Shown piece by piece: positions 8,707-22,507 of a stretch of DNA of 41,137 nt. Position numbers and translations under genes: made by a program. Position 1 is the first letter of the stretch, and every line of letters begins with the position of its first letter. Origin of the DNA: Candidatus Bipolaricaulota bacterium (GTDB lineage Bacteria > Bipolaricaulota > Bipolaricaulia > Bipolaricaulales > Bipolaricaulaceae). The notes beneath the pieces are model-generated. The model was not told where the DNA came from. It did no database searches and was given only the letters and a program-made list of their open reading frames with translations. The stretch lies in the NCBI GenBank assembly GCA_030550535.1, contig JAUQPF010000010.1, forward strand, positions 23,877 through 65,013, read 5' to 3'.

Positions 8707-10107
8707 ATGGATCCGATACAAACCCGCGAGCGCATCCTCAACGGTCCCATCCTCAAGACCATGGTTCTTCTGGCTTGGCCGGTGATGGTTACAAGCGCCC
8801 TTCAGGCCCTTTATAACCTCGTGGACGCCTTCTGGCTTGGGCGGCTGGGCACGGCGGCCGTGGCCGCGCCCGGGATGGCCTGGCCCATCCTCTTCTTCTT
8901 CATGTCCTTCGCCGGCGGATTCCAGGCCGCCGGCTCCACCTTCGTGGCCCAATATTTTGGGGCCGGCGACCGCCGCGGCGCCGAGGAATCCGCAAGCCAG
9001 CTCCTGGGCTTTTTGGGCCTCCTCTCCGTGGTTCTGGGAGCTTTGGGGTACAGCCTCGCCCCCACCGTGCTTCGCCTCATCCGCGCCCCCGCTGAGGTGT
9101 TCCCCTTCGCCCTTACCTACCTGCGCATCGAGTGCATGGGGCTTCCCATCATGTTCATGGCCCAGGCGTTCGGCGGGTTCATGGTGGGGCTGGGACAGAC
9201 CCGCTTCCTCATGTACATCAACGCCTCATCCCTCCTTTTGAACGCTGTGCTTGACCCGCTTTTCATCTTTGGCGTGGGCCCATTCCCGGCCCTCGGCGTG
9301 GCCGGCGCGGCCTGGGCCACGGTGCTCTCCCGGGCTGTTGTGGCGGCCATCGGCCTTTTCATCCTTTTTTCCGGCCGAAGGGGGTTGCGCCTCTCTCCGC
9401 GGTATTTGCGACCCAAACTTTTCAAGGTCTTGCCCATCCTGCGGGTGGGTTTGCCCAACGTGCTGGACCAGGCCAGCACTTCGTTTGGCTTTGTGGTCAT
9501 GATGGGGCTCGTGGCCGGTTTCGGCACCACGGTCGTGGCCGCCTACACCGTGGGGAACCGCATCATCAACCTCATCAACGTGGTGAGCTGGGGCGCGGGG
9601 AGCGCCCTTGTGGCCATGATCGGCCAGAATTTGGGGGCCGAGAGGTACGAGCGGGCGGGCCAGGTGGCGCGTCGGGGCATCCTGGCCACGTTCTTGGCCC
9701 TGATCGGCCTCTACGGGCTCACCCTCCTTCTGCGCCGCCCCATGTTTGCCCTGTTCGTGCGCGATCCCGCGGTGATTCAAGAGGGCGTTTGGTACATCAT
9801 GATCTTCGGCATTTCCATCCCGTTCTTTGGCCTTTTTGACGCCGCGGCCGCGGTGTTCCGGGGCGCGGGCCACACCGTGCCCCCTATGCTCATGGCCATC
9901 GTGCGCTTGTGGGGCCTGCGCGTGTTCCTTTCCTGGCTCTTTGGATACCAGCTGGGCTTCGGCACCACGGGGATGTGGGTGGGCATGACCCTGAGCAACG
10001 TCTTGGCCGGGGTGGCCCTGGTGCTTTGGCTGCGACGAGGGACATGGAAGCGGCGGGTGGTGCGCGCCGCTCCGGCCTTGGGCTCCTCCACCCTTACCTC
10101 CAAATAG
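8707..10107 (+). CDS. MATE family efflux transporter
   Basis: A 466-residue protein with about twelve membrane segments in two related halves. The first half starts PILKTMVLLAWPVMVTSALQ and YNLVDAFWLGRLG, the MatE signature; the second begins near KVLPILRVGLPNVLDQ. MATE transporters export cationic drugs and metabolites using H+ or Na+ gradients. The C-terminal about 25 residues are polar and non-conserved. No regulator is adjacent. The substrate cannot be predicted. Confidence 0.93.
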   Translation: MDPIQTRERILNGPILKTMVLLAWPVMVTSALQALYNLVDAFWLGRLGTAAVAAPGMAWPILFFFMSFAGGFQAAGSTFVAQYFGAGDRRGAEESASQLLGFLGLLSVVLGALGYSLAPTVLRLIRAPAEVFPFALTYLRIECMGLPIMFMAQAFGGFMVGLGQTRFLMYINASSLLLNAVLDPLFIFGVGPFPALGVAGAAWATVLSRAVVAAIGLFILFSGRRGLRLSPRYLRPKLFKVLPILRVGLPNVLDQASTSFGFVVMMGLVAGFGTTVVAAYTVGNRIINLINVVSWGAGSALVAMIGQNLGAERYERAGQVARRGILATFLALIGLYGLTLLLRRPMFALFVRDPAVIQEGVWYIMIFGISIPFFGLFDAAAAVFRGAGHTVPPMLMAIVRLWGLRVFLSWLFGYQLGFGTTGMWVGMTLSNVLAGVALVLWLRRGTWKRRVVRAAPALGSSTLTSK

Positions 10108-10125: not shown

Positions 10126-10153
10126 TTGACAGAGGCCCACCCCGCGTTGTACT
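10126..10153 (+). promoter_or_regulatory. Promoter of the ABC importer leader
   Basis: A perfect TTGACA (10126-10131), 16-base spacer, and TGTACT (10148-10153). It is the best -35 in the window. Transcription would start near 10160, just before the first paired element of the structured leader. Confidence 0.7.
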
Positions 10154-10159
10154 TAAGAG

Positions 10160-10304
10160 GCGTGATGGCCGGAAAGCTTTGCGGAAGGGGGGTGATCGCC
10201 GGGGCGAAGGCCTACGTGTGGTACTGGTTCGCATGAGGGCGTGACTCTCTGATTCGGAGAGTCATGCCCATCACCGCAAGCCAAAGCTTGCGGTTTTTTG
10301 TTTT
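10160..10304 (+). ncRNA. Structured 5' leader with terminator (riboswitch-like)
   Basis: About 145 bases between the promoter and the ABC importer genes. A closing stem GTGATGG (10162-10168) with CCATCAC (10268-10274) encloses a weaker GCGAA/TTCGC helix (10204-10232 region) and a long hairpin, 13 pairs including one G-U (10237-10249 with 10257-10269). The 3' strand of the closing stem abuts and shares a base with an intrinsic terminator. GCTTTGCGG (10176-10184) can pair with the terminator's 5' arm, and GGTGAT (10191-10196) can compete for ATCACC. This is the arrangement of a transcriptional riboswitch or attenuator. I could not match it to T-box, SAM, TPP, purine, lysine, fluoride, guanidine or preQ1 consensus. 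The ligand is unknown. Confidence 0.6.
10274..10304 (+). terminator. Intrinsic terminator in the ABC importer leader
   Basis: CCGCAAGC, loop CAAA, GCTTGCGG: a perfect eight-pair stem followed by TTTTTTGTTTT. It lies 15 bases before the ATG of the substrate-binding protein, so it must be bypassed for expression and is very probably regulatory. Confidence 0.88.
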
Positions 10305-10318
10305 ATAAGGGGGTGTGG

Positions 10319-11284
10319 ATGAGGCGAGTTCTTGCGGTGAGCGCGCTTTTGGTGTTCGGGCTTTTGGGGGCCGCGCGGCCCATCCTTATTGGGATCACCC
10401 AGATCGTGGACCATCCCGCCTTGAACGCCGTGCGGGACGGTGTGATCGAGGCCCTGCGTCGGGCCGGCTACGTGGAGGGCCAGAACGTCCAGTACCTCTT
10501 TGCCAACGCCCAAGGTGACTTCTCCGTGGCCATCGCCATCGCCCAGGAGTTCCGAGCCCGCGGCGTGGACCTCGTGGTCTCCATCACCACTCCTTCCTCC
10601 CAGGCCGTGGTCCAAGTGTTCAAGGACACCCACGTTCCCGTGATCTTCTCCGCGGTCACCGATCCTGTAGGCGCGGGGATCACCGCATACCCCAACGTCA
10701 CGGGCGCCTCGGACATGATCGATGTGCGCGCCGATGTGGAGCTCCTCTTGAAGCTTGTTCCTGGCCTGAAGAGACTGGGCCAGGTCTACAACCCAGGGGA
10801 GGCCAACTCCGCCATCCTCACAGAGATGACGAAGAAGGTGTGCGCCGAGCTCGGGATCGAGCTCATCGTGGCGGCGGCGAACGGCACCGCGGAGGTCCCC
10901 TTGGCCGTGCAGTCCCTGGTGGGCCGCGTGGACGCTATCTACTGTACCACCGACAACACCGTGGCCGCTGCTCTGGACGCGGTGGTGGCCGTGTCCAAGG
11001 CCCATAAGATCCCCTTCCTCTTTGCCGACCCCACGAGCCTTGAGCGGGGAGTCCTCATCTGCACGGGGTTTGATTACTTCGACCACGGCCTTCTCACCGG
11101 GGAGATCGTGCTCAAGGTCCTGGGAGGAACCCCGCCCTCCGCCATTCCCTTCGTGCGCCAGGCCGGAACCCAAGTCTGGCTGAACCTCGACGTGGCTCAG
11201 GAGATGGGCCTCGTCTTCCCCGAGGAGGTCAAGAAGCTCGCCACAGGGCTCCTCTTCGGAGGGCAGAGGTTCGTGAAGGAGTGA
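10319..11284 (+). CDS. ABC transporter substrate-binding protein (PF04392 family)
   Basis: A 321-residue periplasmic-binding protein of the ABC_sub_bind family (COG2984). The N-terminus MRRVLAVSALLVFGLLGAARP is a signal peptide without a lipobox. The mature part starts ILIGITQIVDHPALN and runs through GVDLVVSITTPSSQAV, IFSAVTDPVGAGI and NGTAEVPLAVQSL, a type I periplasmic-binding fold. Relatives in some Firmicutes (TrpX) bind aromatic amino acids, but many are uncharacterised. It is the first gene of a three-gene importer under the structured leader. ATG at 10319 is chosen over an upstream in-frame TTG that lies in the terminator T-tract. Confidence 0.9.
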   Translation: MRRVLAVSALLVFGLLGAARPILIGITQIVDHPALNAVRDGVIEALRRAGYVEGQNVQYLFANAQGDFSVAIAIAQEFRARGVDLVVSITTPSSQAVVQVFKDTHVPVIFSAVTDPVGAGITAYPNVTGASDMIDVRADVELLLKLVPGLKRLGQVYNPGEANSAILTEMTKKVCAELGIELIVAAANGTAEVPLAVQSLVGRVDAIYCTTDNTVAAALDAVVAVSKAHKIPFLFADPTSLERGVLICTGFDYFDHGLLTGEIVLKVLGGTPPSAIPFVRQAGTQVWLNLDVAQEMGLVFPEEVKKLATGLLFGGQRFVKE

Positions 11285-11288
11285 GGCC

Positions 11289-12173
11289 GTGCTCTTTTTG
11301 CACGCGGCCGAGCAGGGGCTGATCTATGGGCTCATGGCCCTCGGGGTCTACCTCTCGTTCCGAGTGCTCGCGTTCCCCGATCTCTCCGTGGACGGGACGT
11401 TCCCGCTCGGTGCGGCCGTGGCGGGGATGCTCGTCCTTAGAGGATTCAGCCCCTACCTCGCCCTGCTCGGCGCCCTGGGTGCGGGCCTGGTGGCCGGTGC
11501 CTTCACCGGGGTCCTGGCCACCAGGCTCCGCATCCCCGGACTCCTCGCGGGAGTCCTCACCATGATCATGCTCTATTCCCTGAACCTGCGCATCATGGGC
11601 CGCCCCAACCTCTCCCTTTTGGGAAGGCCTTCAGCCCTGCTGAGCCTGGCCCGCGCCCTCGCCGTTCCCCGCGGCTACGAAATCCTCGTGGCCGCCGGGC
11701 TCTTCGCCGCTTTCGTGCTCGTCCTTCTCCTTTTGTTCCTGCACACCGAGCTCGGAGGAACCCTGCGCGCCGTGGGCCAGAACCCGGAGATGGTGCGGGC
11801 CCTGGGCACGAACCCCGAGAACCTCGTGGTCCTGGGGGTTGCCCTCTCCAACGGGTTTGTGGCCCTCTCCGGCGCCCTGGCCTCCCAGTACTCGGGTTTT
11901 GCTGACGTGGGCATGGGCATCGGCACGATCGTGGCCGGCCTGGCTTCGGTGATGGTGGGCGAGATCCTGCTGCGCCCGCGCGCGATCTTTTCCCACCTTG
12001 TGGCGGTGCTTCTGGGTTCCGTCGTTTACCGGCTCGCCATTTCTTTGGCCCTGCGGTACGGGGCAGCTTTGGGGTTCACCGCCTCCGACTTGCGGTTGCT
12101 CACGGCGCTGGTGGTGCTTGGGGCGCTTGCGGCACCCGCGCTGCGCACGGCCTTGCGAGGAGGTGAGGCCTGA
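11289..12173 (+). CDS. ABC transporter permease (COG4120)
   Basis: A 294-residue inner-membrane permease of the BPD_transp_2/branched-chain-type fold with about eight to nine helices. LGVYLSFRVLAFPDLSVDG near the N-terminus and AVGQNPEMVRALGTN in the cytoplasmic coupling loop are typical of COG4120, the partner of COG2984 binding proteins. It starts at GTG four bases after the previous stop, and its own TGA overlaps the ATG of the ATPase gene. Confidence 0.92.
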   Translation: MLFLHAAEQGLIYGLMALGVYLSFRVLAFPDLSVDGTFPLGAAVAGMLVLRGFSPYLALLGALGAGLVAGAFTGVLATRLRIPGLLAGVLTMIMLYSLNLRIMGRPNLSLLGRPSALLSLARALAVPRGYEILVAAGLFAAFVLVLLLLFLHTELGGTLRAVGQNPEMVRALGTNPENLVVLGVALSNGFVALSGALASQYSGFADVGMGIGTIVAGLASVMVGEILLRPRAIFSHLVAVLLGSVVYRLAISLALRYGAALGFTASDLRLLTALVVLGALAAPALRTALRGGEA

Positions 12174-12970
12174 TGCTCGAGCTCCTCGGGATCACCAAGA
12201 CCTTTGTCCTGGGGGCGGAGCGGGTGGTGGCCCTGGAGGACGTGACTTTGACCCTGGGCGAGGGCGAGGTGGCCACGGTGATCGGCTCCAACGGGGCGGG
12301 AAAGACCACGCTCCTCAACGTGATCGCCGGGACGTGCCGTCCCGACCGGGGGCGGGTGAGGCTGGCCGGCCGGGACATCACCCGCTGGCCCGTGCACAGG
12401 CGGGCCCCCCTTATCGGTCGGGTCTACCAGGATCCCTTGCGGGGAACGGCCGCGCAGATGACGGTTCTGGAGAACCTGGCCTTGGCCAGCCGCAAGGGCG
12501 GCCGAGGCCTTGGCCCCTTGGTGGGCCGACGGAAGCGCCAAATTCTCGGCGCGGCCGTGGCCCAGCTCGGCATGGGCCTGGAAAAGCGCTTGCACGAGCG
12601 GGTGGCCCACCTCTCCGGCGGGGAGCGGCAGGCCCTCACCGTGCTCATGGCCACCCTCACCCGGCCCAAGCTCCTCCTTTTGGACGAGCACACCGCGGCC
12701 CTGGATCCCGCCAACGCCGAGCGCGTCCTCAAGATCACGGAGGATTTGGTGCGGGAATACCGGATCACCACCCTCATGGTCACCCACCGCATGGACCAGG
12801 CCCTGGCCGTGGGCGAGCGGCTGGTGATGATGCACAAAGGGCGGGTGATCCTGGACCTTGGGGCCACGGAAAAGGGGAGGTTGCGGGTGGAGGACTTGGT
12901 GGCCCTTTTCCGGCGCGCAGGGGTGAGCGACGACGCTCTACTTTTGGTGCAAAACGGGGCCTGTGCTTAG
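12173..12970 (+). CDS. ABC transporter ATP-binding protein (COG1101)
   Basis: A 265-residue nucleotide-binding domain. Walker A GSNGAGKT is at 38-45, the Q-loop at VYQDP, the signature LSGGERQALT, Walker B LLLLDEHTAALDP with the catalytic Glu, and the H-loop at MVTHRMDQA. The His after DE (DEHTAALDP) is characteristic of COG1101, the ATPase of this importer type. With the two preceding genes it forms a complete importer. The gene converges with the DUF763 gene across a 60-base gap; GGGCCTG and CAGGCCC near its end could form a weak long hairpin. Confidence 0.93.
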   Translation: MLELLGITKTFVLGAERVVALEDVTLTLGEGEVATVIGSNGAGKTTLLNVIAGTCRPDRGRVRLAGRDITRWPVHRRAPLIGRVYQDPLRGTAAQMTVLENLALASRKGGRGLGPLVGRRKRQILGAAVAQLGMGLEKRLHERVAHLSGGERQALTVLMATLTRPKLLLLDEHTAALDPANAERVLKITEDLVREYRITTLMVTHRMDQALAVGERLVMMHKGRVILDLGATEKGRLRVEDLVALFRRAGVSDDALLLVQNGACA

Positions 12971-13030: not shown

Positions 13031-14113
13031 CTAAGGGGAGCGGAAGAGGAGCGGGATGCGCCGCAGCGCCGCAAGCTCCTCCCGCTCCCCGAGCCGGGCC
13101 TGGCGCACCGCCCGCTCCAGGGCCGCGACCGTCCGGTCGTAGGTGGCCCGATCCACGGGGTAGGGTGTGCCGTCCTTTCCGCCGTGGGCGAAGGCGAAGC
13201 GCGCGGGATCCCGGAAGGACGCGGGGGCCCCATGGAGGAGCTCCGCGAGCAGGGCCAAGGCCCGCAGGCCCTTGGCGCCCAACCCTTGCACGCCCAGCAG
13301 CTTCTCAAAGTCCGGGGCTGCGGCCTCGTAGGTGCGCAGGAAAACGCTCTCCAGCCGTTTGGGGTCGAGGTCCGAAAGGAGGAGGGCGTGCCGCTCCGGA
13401 AGCTTCAGCCGTTTCAGGTGACGGAGCTCGGCCGCGAGCTGATCCGGGGGTTTGCGCGCAAGCTCGGGAATGGCCGTCCGCGCGGGCTCGGCTTCCTGGG
13501 CCACGAGGTTCAGGACGAGGTCGGCGCGGGCCCCCACCACCCCTGCGTGGGGCTCCACCACGAAACTTTCTAACCCCTCGGAGAGCCAGTGGTAGCGGCG
13601 GGCCAGGCGCGCGGATTCCCGCATCCCCTGCTGCACCACACACCACCGTCCCTCCCGGTCGAAGAAGAACACGTGGTGGTAGATCTGGAAGCCATCTTGA
13701 AGGGCAGCGGAGTCCACTTTCGCGCTCATGCGCGAGGCGTAGAGGAGAGGCCCGGGTTCAAGGCCCACGCGCTCGGCCTGAAGTTCGATCTCCTTTGGGG
13801 TTTCCCGGGAGGCCGCGCCCTTTCCGCCCGCCGCGCATAGCCCAAGCTCCGGACCGATCTCAGCGAGCGCGAGCTTGAGGGCGCCGCAGGTGGTCGTGGT
13901 GAGGCCGCTGGAGTGCCAGTCAAAGCCCAAAAGGCACCCCAGGGCTTGGAACCAGTGGGGATCGGAGAGACGGCGCAGGATCTCCGCGGTGCCGAACTCC
14001 TCGGCGAGGGCAAGGAGGATGGCCCGGCTCAGGCGGACCATGCGGAGGAAAAGCCAGCGCGGGACGTGACCGCCATGCAGCGGCAGATCGGCGTAACCCG
14101 TGCGCGTGGCCAT
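13031..14113 (-). CDS. DUF763 protein with helix-hairpin-helix
   Basis: A 360-residue DUF763 (PF05559) protein. The N-terminus MATRTGYADLPLHGGHVPRW with TAEILRRLSDPHWFQALGCL and FDWHSSGLTT is diagnostic. The centre has MSAKVDSAALQDGFQIYHH and an FFFDREGRWCVVQQGM strand pair. The segment KLLGVQGLGAKGLRALALL looks like a helix-hairpin-helix, so DNA binding is plausible. The family is mainly archaeal and thermophilic-bacterial and has no proven function. ATG at 14113 overlaps the TGA of the hydrolase gene upstream; an in-frame GTG three bases earlier is equally possible. Confidence 0.88.
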   Translation of the reverse strand: MATRTGYADLPLHGGHVPRWLFLRMVRLSRAILLALAEEFGTAEILRRLSDPHWFQALGCLLGFDWHSSGLTTTTCGALKLALAEIGPELGLCAAGGKGAASRETPKEIELQAERVGLEPGPLLYASRMSAKVDSAALQDGFQIYHHVFFFDREGRWCVVQQGMRESARLARRYHWLSEGLESFVVEPHAGVVGARADLVLNLVAQEAEPARTAIPELARKPPDQLAAELRHLKRLKLPERHALLLSDLDPKRLESVFLRTYEAAAPDFEKLLGVQGLGAKGLRALALLAELLHGAPASFRDPARFAFAHGGKDGTPYPVDRATYDRTVAALERAVRQARLGEREELAALRRIPLLFRSP

Positions 14114-14991
14114 CACTTCCCCCGCCAGAGGAGAACCCCGTTCTCCAAAAAGGCCTCCGCGCGCCCCTCCCGTACCAGGAAGGAAAGCAAAGCGTACACC
14201 GTGGTGCGGGCGAGCAGGAAACCCACGAGGTTTAGGTTCTGCGCGCCAAAGCGTTGAGCTAGGAACCCCACGAGCTCTTCGCCGGAGCGCGGGGTGGACA
14301 CGGCTTTTTCTGTTTCCTCCAAGAGGTCAAGGAGGCGGGTTCGGAACGCCCGGACGGCGGCGCGCACGGCCGCACCCTCCAAGGGAGCGCCGTGCCCCGG
14401 CACCACGACCTCGTGCTCCCCAAGGCCATCCAGGCTCTTTAGGGCTTGCGCCACGTCGTGGCAAAAGGGGATGGGATGCTTGGCGAGGATCTCGGGGGTG
14501 AAGAGGGCGTCAGCACAGAAAAGGATGCCGTTCACCGCCACCCCCACCTGTTCGGGCGCATGTCCCGGGAGAGGCACGATCTTCAAGGGGAGGAGCTCCT
14601 CCGCCTTCTCCTCAAGGGGCCTCACCGTGGGGATGGGCCGGGCCAGGGTGAACTTGGCGAGGAGCTCGGGATGAGGGGAGGCTCCGGCGAAGAGGAAGAG
14701 GGGCTCGAGAAGGGGGTGGCGCATCATGGCCGCCTCCAGGGGAGGGGCCCAGAGGGGGAGCCCTTGGGCCTCCCAAAAGTGGGCACCGCCGAAGTGATCG
14801 GCGTGGGCGTGGGTGAGGACGGCTGCGCGCGGCCGGAGTCCCCGCTCCTCCGCCCAACGCCAAAGCCGCCGGGCCGGGCCCTCGTCCAGTCCGGCATCCA
14901 CGAAAAAGACCTCGCCTTCGGCCACGAGGGCCCCGAGGTTCACCCCGCCCCGCAGGACCCAAACGTTTGGACGCAGGGAAACGATCTCCAT
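14113..14991 (-). CDS. Metallo-beta-lactamase-fold hydrolase
   Basis: A 292-residue MBL-superfamily protein. THAHADHFGG at 60-69 gives His61, His63, Asp65 and His66; later ligands are in PLPGHAPEQVG, LFCADALFT and VVPGHGAPLEG, so the full binuclear site is present. The C-terminal helical part (about residues 215-290) ends in a winged-helix-like LLARTTVYALLSFLVREG, seen in thioesterase-like MBL proteins. The reaction is not predictable; a thioester or lactone substrate is likely. It is upstream of and overlaps the DUF763 gene, and appears to have a leaderless promoter. Confidence 0.88.
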   Translation of the reverse strand: MEIVSLRPNVWVLRGGVNLGALVAEGEVFFVDAGLDEGPARRLWRWAEERGLRPRAAVLTHAHADHFGGAHFWEAQGLPLWAPPLEAAMMRHPLLEPLFLFAGASPHPELLAKFTLARPIPTVRPLEEKAEELLPLKIVPLPGHAPEQVGVAVNGILFCADALFTPEILAKHPIPFCHDVAQALKSLDGLGEHEVVVPGHGAPLEGAAVRAAVRAFRTRLLDLLEETEKAVSTPRSGEELVGFLAQRFGAQNLNLVGFLLARTTVYALLSFLVREGRAEAFLENGVLLWRGK

Positions 14992-16815: not shown

Positions 16816-17447
16816 GCTGGGCTCAGCCCTATTCCCTGCCCCTTCAGACCGGCCCCATCAACGACTATGGCCAGACCCTGGAGGCCACGGATCGCGGAAA
16901 GGTTTGGGCTCTCCTCCAGGCTCTCGCCGAGAGGGGCCTGGACATCGTGTACCTCGCGAGCTGGCACGACCCCTTTGGGGACCCTCTGCGCTACGCGGCC
17001 GAGGTCTTTCGGGCCTGGGGCCTTGGGGAGAACCAGACCCTTTTGGTTTTTCTGCGGGGCGCGGATCGGCGCTGGCGGGTGGTGGTGCGGGCAGGGCCAG
17101 CGGTGCGCCTTCCGGCGCGGACCGAGGAGCTTCGCCAGCGCGCGGAGCTCGAGGCCAACCGCACGCGCCCGGGGTACGCCGCCGTGCGCTTCTTGAGCGG
17201 GCTCCTCTCCGCTTTGGAGGAGCCCCCTTCCCGCGGGGGCCTCGTGGTGCCGTGGAAGGCCATCCTCCTTGGGCTGGCCGCCGGGGCCGGCCTTCTTGGG
17301 GTCCTGCGGCTTTTTTGCCCCCGGTGTTTTCGGCCCCTGCGCCGGGTGGAGTCCGTGGGCGGTATACTTTGGGTGTGCCCGCGGTGTCGGTACACCCGGG
17401 CCGGGTGGGGGAGACGGCCAGGGGGCCGCAGGGGCTTTCACCCCTGA
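16776..17447 (+). CDS. TPM-domain membrane protein with zinc ribbon, CTG start
   Basis: About 223 residues. The TPM fold shows as INDYGQTLEATDRGKVW, GLDIVYLASWHDPFGDP and WGLGENQTLLVFLRG; a membrane helix follows (PWKAILLGLAAGAGLLGV), then a cytoplasmic zinc ribbon CPRC...CPRC. No in-frame ATG, GTG or TTG exists between the stop at 16722 and codon 16947, which lies inside the TPM domain. Reading from CTG at 16776 gives a clean signal peptide (RKLLAVLALALVGWAQ) with GGAGG seven bases upstream, so I choose CTG. The front overlaps the zinc-ribbon gene by 40 bases and the end lies inside rnpB. TPM proteins are periplasmic/extracytoplasmic; roles include photosystem repair in plants and poorly known envelope functions in bacteria. 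Confidence 0.7.
   Translation: MRKLLAVLALALVGWAQPYSLPLQTGPINDYGQTLEATDRGKVWALLQALAERGLDIVYLASWHDPFGDPLRYAAEVFRAWGLGENQTLLVFLRGADRRWRVVVRAGPAVRLPARTEELRQRAELEANRTRPGYAAVRFLSGLLSALEEPPSRGGLVVPWKAILLGLAAGAGLLGVLRLFCPRCFRPLRRVESVGGILWVCPRCRYTRAGWGRRPGGRRGFHP
17363..17368 (+). promoter_or_regulatory. Likely -10 box of rnpB inside the TPM gene
   Basis: TATACT within codons of the TPM protein's zinc ribbon. Transcription would begin near 17375, and a small hairpin (GGGTGT 17371-17376 with ACACCC 17392-17397) precedes the mature RNA. The -35 is weak, so rnpB may also be processed from the upstream transcript. Confidence 0.45.
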
Positions 17448-17749
17448 GGAAGGTCCGGACTCCGCAGGGCAGGCCGCTCGGGGCAACCCGAGAGGGAGCG
17501 ATCCCTGGAAAGTGCCACAGAGAACAGACCGCCAGCGGCCCCTCCTCGGGAGGGGTGCGGGCAAGGGTGAAACGGTGGGGTAAGAGCCCACCGCCGGGGC
17601 CGCGAGGTTCCCGGGCACGGCAAACCCCGGCCGGAGCAAGGCCAAATAGGGAGGCGCTTGAGGGTGGCCCGCCCGATGCCTCCGGGTAGGCCGCACAAGA
17701 GGAATGGCCCCCCACGACAGAATCCGGCCTATGGCCCTCTCCCCCGCCC
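17403..17749 (+). ncRNA. rnpB: RNase P RNA, class A
   Basis: The conserved blocks are in order: GAGGAAGGTCCGGACTCC (P4 5' side; most homologs have GAAAG), GCCACAGAGAACAGACCGCC, GGGTGAAACGGTGGGGTAAG and ACAGAATCCGGCCTAT (P4 3' side). The ends pair as P1: GGGGGAGA at 17407-17414 with TCTCCCCC at 17738-17745, extended by GGCC/GGCC inside and GGG/CCC outside. Length about 347 bases is normal for class A. RNase P RNA matures the 5' ends of tRNAs. The first about 45 bases are also coding sequence of the TPM protein. Confidence 0.96.
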
Positions 17750-22435: not shown

Positions 22436-22507
22436 GGGCCCGTAGCTCAGGGGTAGAGCAGCCGGCTCATAACCGGTTGGTCGCAGGTTCAATCCCTGCC
22501 GGGCCCA
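22436..22507 (+). tRNA. tRNA with CAT anticodon (elongator Met, or Ile2)
   Basis: A 72-base cloverleaf: acceptor GGGCCCG with CGGGCCC, D arm with GCTC...GAGC, anticodon loop CTCATAA (anticodon CAT), T arm with GCAGG/CCTGC and loop TTCAATC, discriminator A. The G1-C72 pair rules out initiator tRNA. Whether it is elongator Met or the lysidine-modified Ile2 form cannot be settled by eye. CCA is not encoded. The next ATG is only four bases after the discriminator. Confidence 0.95.

Follow-up and report, generated by a model that had tools for sequence, protein, structure and literature searches.

Leaders of TrpX-like importer operons in Bipolaricaulota are probable leader-peptide attenuators with aromatic control codons

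Which signal controls an ABC importer operon that is preceded by a terminator-bearing leader RNA without a known consensus? This question is raised by a stretch of 41,137 nucleotides (the window) from a 1.41 Mb genome of Bipolaricaulota, a bacterial phylum whose members are mostly uncultivated. The leader lies between a MATE gene and a PF04392 ABC importer operon (10319-12970); the positions of all features are listed in Table 1. The original prediction interpreted it as an RNA-based switch that responds to the solute being imported, consisting of a strong promoter, a closing stem, a 13-pair hairpin, a terminator stem and a segment sequestering the 5' arm of the terminator. The leader folds better than 200 of 200 dinucleotide shuffles (z -5.0). 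An Rfam search of the plus strand at the gathering score and at E-values up to 10 gave nothing relevant, neither a T-box nor a known riboswitch class, in agreement with the claim that no known consensus applies.

Comparison with relatives retained three of the five proposed elements, namely promoter, hairpin (P1) and terminator. For the promoter, TACTTA, the best reading of the -10 hexamer, is of only fair quality; the generic consensus promoter scan does not list this promoter because of its poor -10. Nearly all relatives have a TTGACA-like -35 and a -10 with this same spacing to the leader ORF, and transcription is expected to start at about 10162. P1 is real and conserved, but comprises 15 pairs instead of 13. 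The perfect terminator stem with its T-run was found as predicted and is kept in relatives. The arrangement of promoter, terminator and COG2984-type importer probably represents a regulated premature terminator, as had been proposed. The two other elements did not withstand the comparison: The closing stem of 10162-10168 (GTGATGG) with 10268-10274 (CCATCAC) is present in the window but not conserved in seven close relatives of the genus, and the presumed sequestering segment GCTTTGCGG (10176-10184) pairs strongly in the window only and not in these seven relatives. An in-frame ORF had been missed.

Table 1. Positions of the leader elements and of further features of the window.
Feature	Position	Strand	Details
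MATE gene	8707-10107		5' neighbour of the leader
Promoter	10126-10155	+	-35 TTGACA 10126-10131; -10 TACTTA 10150-10155; spacer 18 nt
Leader ORF	10162-10236	+	start GTG 10162 or ATG 10165; stop TGA 10234-10236; 23-24 codons
SD-like stretch inside leader ORF	10187-10197	+	GGGGGGTGATC
Control codons	10213-10230	+	TAC GTG TGG TAC TGG TTC; Tyr, Trp, Tyr, Trp, Phe; last Trp codon 10225-10227
Hairpin P1	10237-10269	+	GGGCGTGACTCTCTG 10237-10251 with CGGAGAGTCATGCCC 10255-10269; directly 3' of the stop codon
Intrinsic terminator	10273-10304	+	ACCGCAAGC 10273-10281 with GCTTGCGGT 10286-10294, then T-run; 9 pairs
Importer substrate-binding protein	10319-11284	+	PF04392, 255 bits; TrpX-like (COG2984); ATG 10319
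Importer permease	11289-12173	+	PF02653, 104 bits
Importer ATPase	12173-12970	+	PF00005, 101 bits
DUF763 protein	13031-14116	-	PF05559, 424 bits; convergent with the importer operon
Bacterial class A RNase P RNA	17410-17746	+	223.9 bits
tRNA	22436-22507	+	

Read from the ATG, the ORF of the window encodes the peptide (M)MAGKLCGRGVIAGAKAYVWYWFA; the GTG start adds one codon. The peptide terminates with AYVWYWFA. A short in-frame ORF that ends directly 5' of the hairpin is present in all leaders compared of the same genus and family (f1), with peptide ends such as FYGYWFA, YYWWFA, SYFVYYWFV, YFGWFYFA and FYSWYWFI. Every leader contains a cluster of aromatic codons; within the last nine codons of 21 leaders, 109 of 189 residues (58%) are Trp, Tyr or Phe. 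Single-base codon differences within the genus are synonymous in 46 and non-synonymous in 27 cases in the leader frame, versus 29:60 and 16:91 in the two other frames; in the small g4/g7 group taken alone, this bias is not seen. Alignment gaps 5' of the leader stop codon are multiples of three. The supposed aptamer region is thus a reading frame, and a metabolite riboswitch is highly improbable. Promoter, structured leader, terminator and importer are all in place for such an element, but the conserved stretch is the reading frame, Rfam offers no match, and between families it is the aromatic codons that are conserved and not the RNA sequence and structure 5' of P1.

No Shine-Dalgarno (SD) sequence was seen 5' of the ORF start in most leaders, and the first in-frame start follows the -10 hexamer by 4-11 nt in nearly all leaders of families f1 and f9. 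Therefore, the ORFs of most leaders, including that of the window, are probably leaderless. Two importer leaders of family f2 are exceptions, and the promoter scan is unreliable for L016 and L085. Inside the ORF, an SD-like stretch that reads GGAGGTGATC in most relatives is nearly invariant in alignment A1. It also occurs in leaders of f2 importers, of trpE and of LivG, with L100, L111, L179, L184, L185 and L190 among the leaders that carry it. A near-perfect SD-like sequence 5' of the aromatic codons is thus shared by unrelated leaders, where it might serve to pause or retain a ribosome.

A custom covariance model built from 23 leaders was used to search 100 genomes of the phylum, a check that the original prediction had called for. 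The 26 strong matches (E < 1e-10) all belong to the window's family, and 25 of them precede PF04392 genes. The remaining one (genome G016) precedes a TrpB-like gene (TIGR01415, 647.9 bits), which is followed by an importer with a leader of its own. The order at this locus (L114, 1-5519) is MATE, leader, TrpB-like gene, leader, importer; the window has no TrpB-like gene, and MATE is followed by leader and importer. Families f2 and f9 added 16 importer leaders of unrelated sequence, which keep the order of ORF, strong hairpin and terminator and whose ORFs end, among others, with SSRWYWFSIGISAFA, CWYWFTSGFSPAN, FYWYWFEHGFSAAR, GFFWYWKSA and YSYYYWFLRF. In total, a leader is found at 41 of 48 PF04392 places in three families, mostly without sequence similarity between families; every one of the 41 substantial PF04392 genes of the phylum is thereby covered. 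The other seven places, which were inspected in part, comprise gene fragments, one gene at a contig edge and weak paralogues. That the RNA differs completely between families while the order of aromatic ORF, hairpin and terminator stays fits sensing by a ribosome and not a ligand-binding aptamer. Note that a contig titled Thermotoga sp. (L052) carries a leader and importer of the Bipolaricaulota type and matches Bipolaricaulota genome G011; its title looks wrong.

The genes downstream of the leaders are related to Trp. TrpX (NF041285) is the only NCBIfam match of the substrate-binding protein from the window, with 214.7 bits below the cut-off of 390, and its PDB relatives are 3lkv, 6hni and 3lft. 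The protein appears to be a relative of TrpX tryptophan-binding proteins, with tryptophan as putative ligand. In three f2 genomes, four trpE genes (L179, L184, L185, L190) are preceded by Trp-specific leaders of the same layout, whose ORFs contain WPWLN, WLWIV and WIFWPWFN. In four f9 genomes (L021, L022, L024, L025), LivG/LivF-like ATPase genes likewise follow a leader in which an aromatic ORF with an SD is combined with a hairpin and a terminator; here, the spacing between codons and hairpin is less regular. trpE co-occurs with PF04392 in only four of the 41 PF04392 genomes and was found neither in the window genome nor in its genus, at a genome completeness of 81-92%. This rarity suggests that PF04392 genomes without trpE, among them the window genome and its genus, belong to Trp auxotrophs. 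Given its coding signature and aromatic codons, its P1 and terminator, its conservation and the Trp genes linked to it, the leader is very probably a leader-peptide attenuator that senses aromatic amino acids.

P1 of the window has a folding energy of -28.1 kcal/mol (z -8.4), and the median z across leaders is -5.5 in comparison to shuffles. In 22 leaders, changes of paired positions occur at most positions of P1; these were counted on individually folded sequences, which leans towards structure, and leaders within the genus are not independent. Seven terminator pairs (CCGCAAG..CTTGCGG) are invariant in the 23 leaders of the window's family, and the terminator sequence is found in the phylum at one place per genome where present. 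An attenuator leaves this invariance unexplained, which counts against it. Control of termination by an RNA- or DNA-binding protein that recognizes the terminator stem, with the leader peptide in a secondary role, would account for invariant terminator pairs next to a P1 that varies with its pairing kept; moreover, the conserved terminator stem of the rimP leader, which lacks a visible antiterminator, was read in this way (PMC2965389). However, the terminator sequences of f2 and f9 are unrelated to those of the window's family while the layout is the same, and control by such a protein is quite unlikely. In the LivG leaders of f9, the terminator retains its 3' arm even in those cases in which the 5' arm does not match it. 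Matches of the terminator pattern beyond Bipolaricaulota (Streptomyces, Inhella, Halobacterium and others) have no aromatic ORF and were discarded, and the DNA matches L017, L026, L027, L029 and L031 look like chance.

The elements are arranged at conserved distances. The last Trp codon, replaced by a Tyr codon in two leaders, invariably starts 9-13 nt before P1 (38 of 38 leaders), which is the reach of a ribosome with this codon in the A site. P1 ends 2-12 nt before the terminator (median 5, n = 38), usually 2-7 nt and up to 12 nt in some trpE leaders. A strict spacing rule with a gap of at most 7 nt between P1 and terminator holds for 29 of 38 leaders and for 9.8% of shuffles, almost none of which is equally stable. 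With a stalled ribosome and P1 folded, a median of 13 unpaired nt (8-21) is left up to the terminator, compared to 37.5 nt (32-49, n = 38) with a ribosome at the stop codon. It has been argued that full folding of a hairpin needs 10-15 nt of free mRNA past the ribosomal A site, and that the E. coli terminator tR2 escapes repression by a ribosome more than 27 nt away (PMC4824070). These thresholds separate the stalled state from the stop-codon state, although they come from another terminator in E. coli, and P1 counted as folded RNA next to the ribosome differs from linear RNA.

On this basis, a mechanism can be proposed. RNA polymerase would start at about 10162, and a ribosome would initiate the leader ORF at or beside the 5' end of the transcript. 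With an ample supply of charged Trp, Tyr and Phe tRNAs, the ribosome would reach the stop codon, open P1 and sit more than 27 nt from the terminator, which would then fold and end transcription 5' of the importer genes. When aromatic aminoacyl-tRNA, chiefly Trp-tRNA, runs short, the ribosome would stall in the codon cluster and P1 would fold at its leading edge. Because P1 ends so near the terminator, ribosome and P1 together would be too close to it for the terminator hairpin to close, and the polymerase would read into the importer operon. In contrast to E. coli trpL, this model predicts read-through for a leader that is not translated, which counts against it. Ribosome-mediated attenuation by aromatic aminoacyl-tRNA, chiefly Trp-tRNA, is likely as the explanation of the leader apart from the proximity step. 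The polarity of the response is suggested by the same layout before trpE and the TrpB-like gene. The proximity step itself, i.e. that stalled ribosome and P1 block terminator folding, we infer from the geometry and give slightly less than an even chance.

Among the leaders compared, no conserved helix overlapping the terminator and no conserved partner of its 5' arm were found; the link from P1 to the terminator is for this reason based on geometry and E. coli data. The cost of freeing the terminator 5' arm was calculated with a ribosome placed at each codon, using an energy model that ignores pseudoknots and folding kinetics. For E. coli trpL, this cost is 8-9 kcal/mol at the Trp codons (9.3 at the last of them) and 0 at the stop codon, i.e. 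the known antiterminator was recovered. With the ribosome at the last Trp codon of the Bipolaricaulota leaders, it is 0-5.6 kcal/mol and usually near or below that of shuffles. In these leaders, a ribosome on the Trp codons leaves the arm mostly free, and one at the stop codon leaves it no more paired than random; trpE leaders are flat in this test. Three individual helices were rejected. GGUUCGC:GCGUGACC, proposed by RNAalifold, breaks in several leaders without compensation (alignments A1 and A2, by eye). In most leaders, the P1 extension UGGUUCGC:GCAAGCC does not outperform shuffled codons. The SD-like GGAGGT pairs well with ACCTCC of P1 in some leaders, for example with 11 pairs in L010, but poorly in the genus, and this pairing is thus not general.

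A classical attenuator whose antiterminator was overlooked, for example a pseudoknot or a kinetically formed helix, would be in line with the classical general logic and gene set and with the limits of the energy model; in a few leaders (L002, L004, L008), UGGUUCGC is able to pair with the terminator arm. Since this pairing does not exceed shuffled codons in most leaders, the same test easily recovered the E. coli antiterminator, and trpE leaders are flat, we consider this reading somewhat unlikely. The calculation finds the terminator 5' arm most accessible with the ribosome on the Trp codons, which is the reverse of E. coli trpL and would suit an inverted attenuator. In that case, stalling at Trp codons would fold P1 and the insulated terminator arm would terminate, whereas fast translation would open P1, whose 3' strand would interfere, and read-through would occur when aromatics are plentiful. 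However, with the ribosome at the stop codon, pairing of the arm does not exceed that of shuffles, and induction by plentiful Trp makes little sense before trpE and the TrpB-like gene; this reversal is unlikely.

Leader-peptide attenuators are known in Proteobacteria, Actinobacteria and some Firmicutes (PMC1262725, PMC2965389). The leaders share with this broad class an ORF with a cluster of control codons, a terminator between ORF and structural genes, and downstream genes for the same amino acid (trpE, TrpB-like, and the importer, TrpX-like below the family cut-off). An antiterminator that sequesters the terminator 5' arm on stalling, as in the trp type (1:2 / 2:3 / 3:4), was not found, and in 38 leaders the ORF stops 32-49 nt before the terminator, which does not correspond to the pyrBI type. 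Judged from sequence, the leader would therefore be a ribosome-mediated attenuator in the broad sense, and a variant apart from these two types. Like the trp attenuators of E. coli (trpL), Corynebacterium and Streptomyces (PMC1262725), it combines a Trp-rich short ORF, a hairpin after the control codons, a terminator and Trp-related genes. In contrast, no antiterminator shares the terminator 5' arm, hairpin and terminator are arranged in tandem, and the codons before the importer are a mixture of Trp, Tyr and Phe. A leaderless attenuator ORF, with the transcript beginning at the start codon and termination yielding a short RNA, is also found in trpL of Sinorhizobium meliloti (PMC7298713), which has mutually exclusive structures, however, and belongs to another phylum and gene. 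With pyrBI-type control (described in PMC4824070), the leaders share the proposed principle that a ribosome near the terminator causes read-through. The pyrBI ORF enters the terminator and its full translation prevents termination, whereas the Bipolaricaulota hairpin would shorten the path on stalling only. The trpXYZ T-box of Streptococcus suis (PMC9382623) precedes an importer of the same family and combines a tRNA-charging signal with a terminator, but its RNA reads the tRNA directly, while in Bipolaricaulota a ribosome would do so.

In the open-licence literature, no description of leader-peptide attenuation in Bipolaricaulota was found. A hairpin that forms directly in front of the stalled ribosome may loop out the RNA up to the terminator, such that ribosome and hairpin together prevent terminator folding in place of a competing antiterminator, and this wiring may be used throughout the phylum for aromatic import and Trp synthesis, with unrelated RNA and the same distances; we give this generalization somewhat less than an even chance. 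It suggests that an attenuator can be wired without an overlapping antiterminator. Terminator-bearing leaders without an Rfam match should be translated before they are named riboswitches. For the locus studied here, an orphan riboswitch-like element becomes a readable regulator, which opens a route to predicting the amino-acid specificity of Bipolaricaulota importers.
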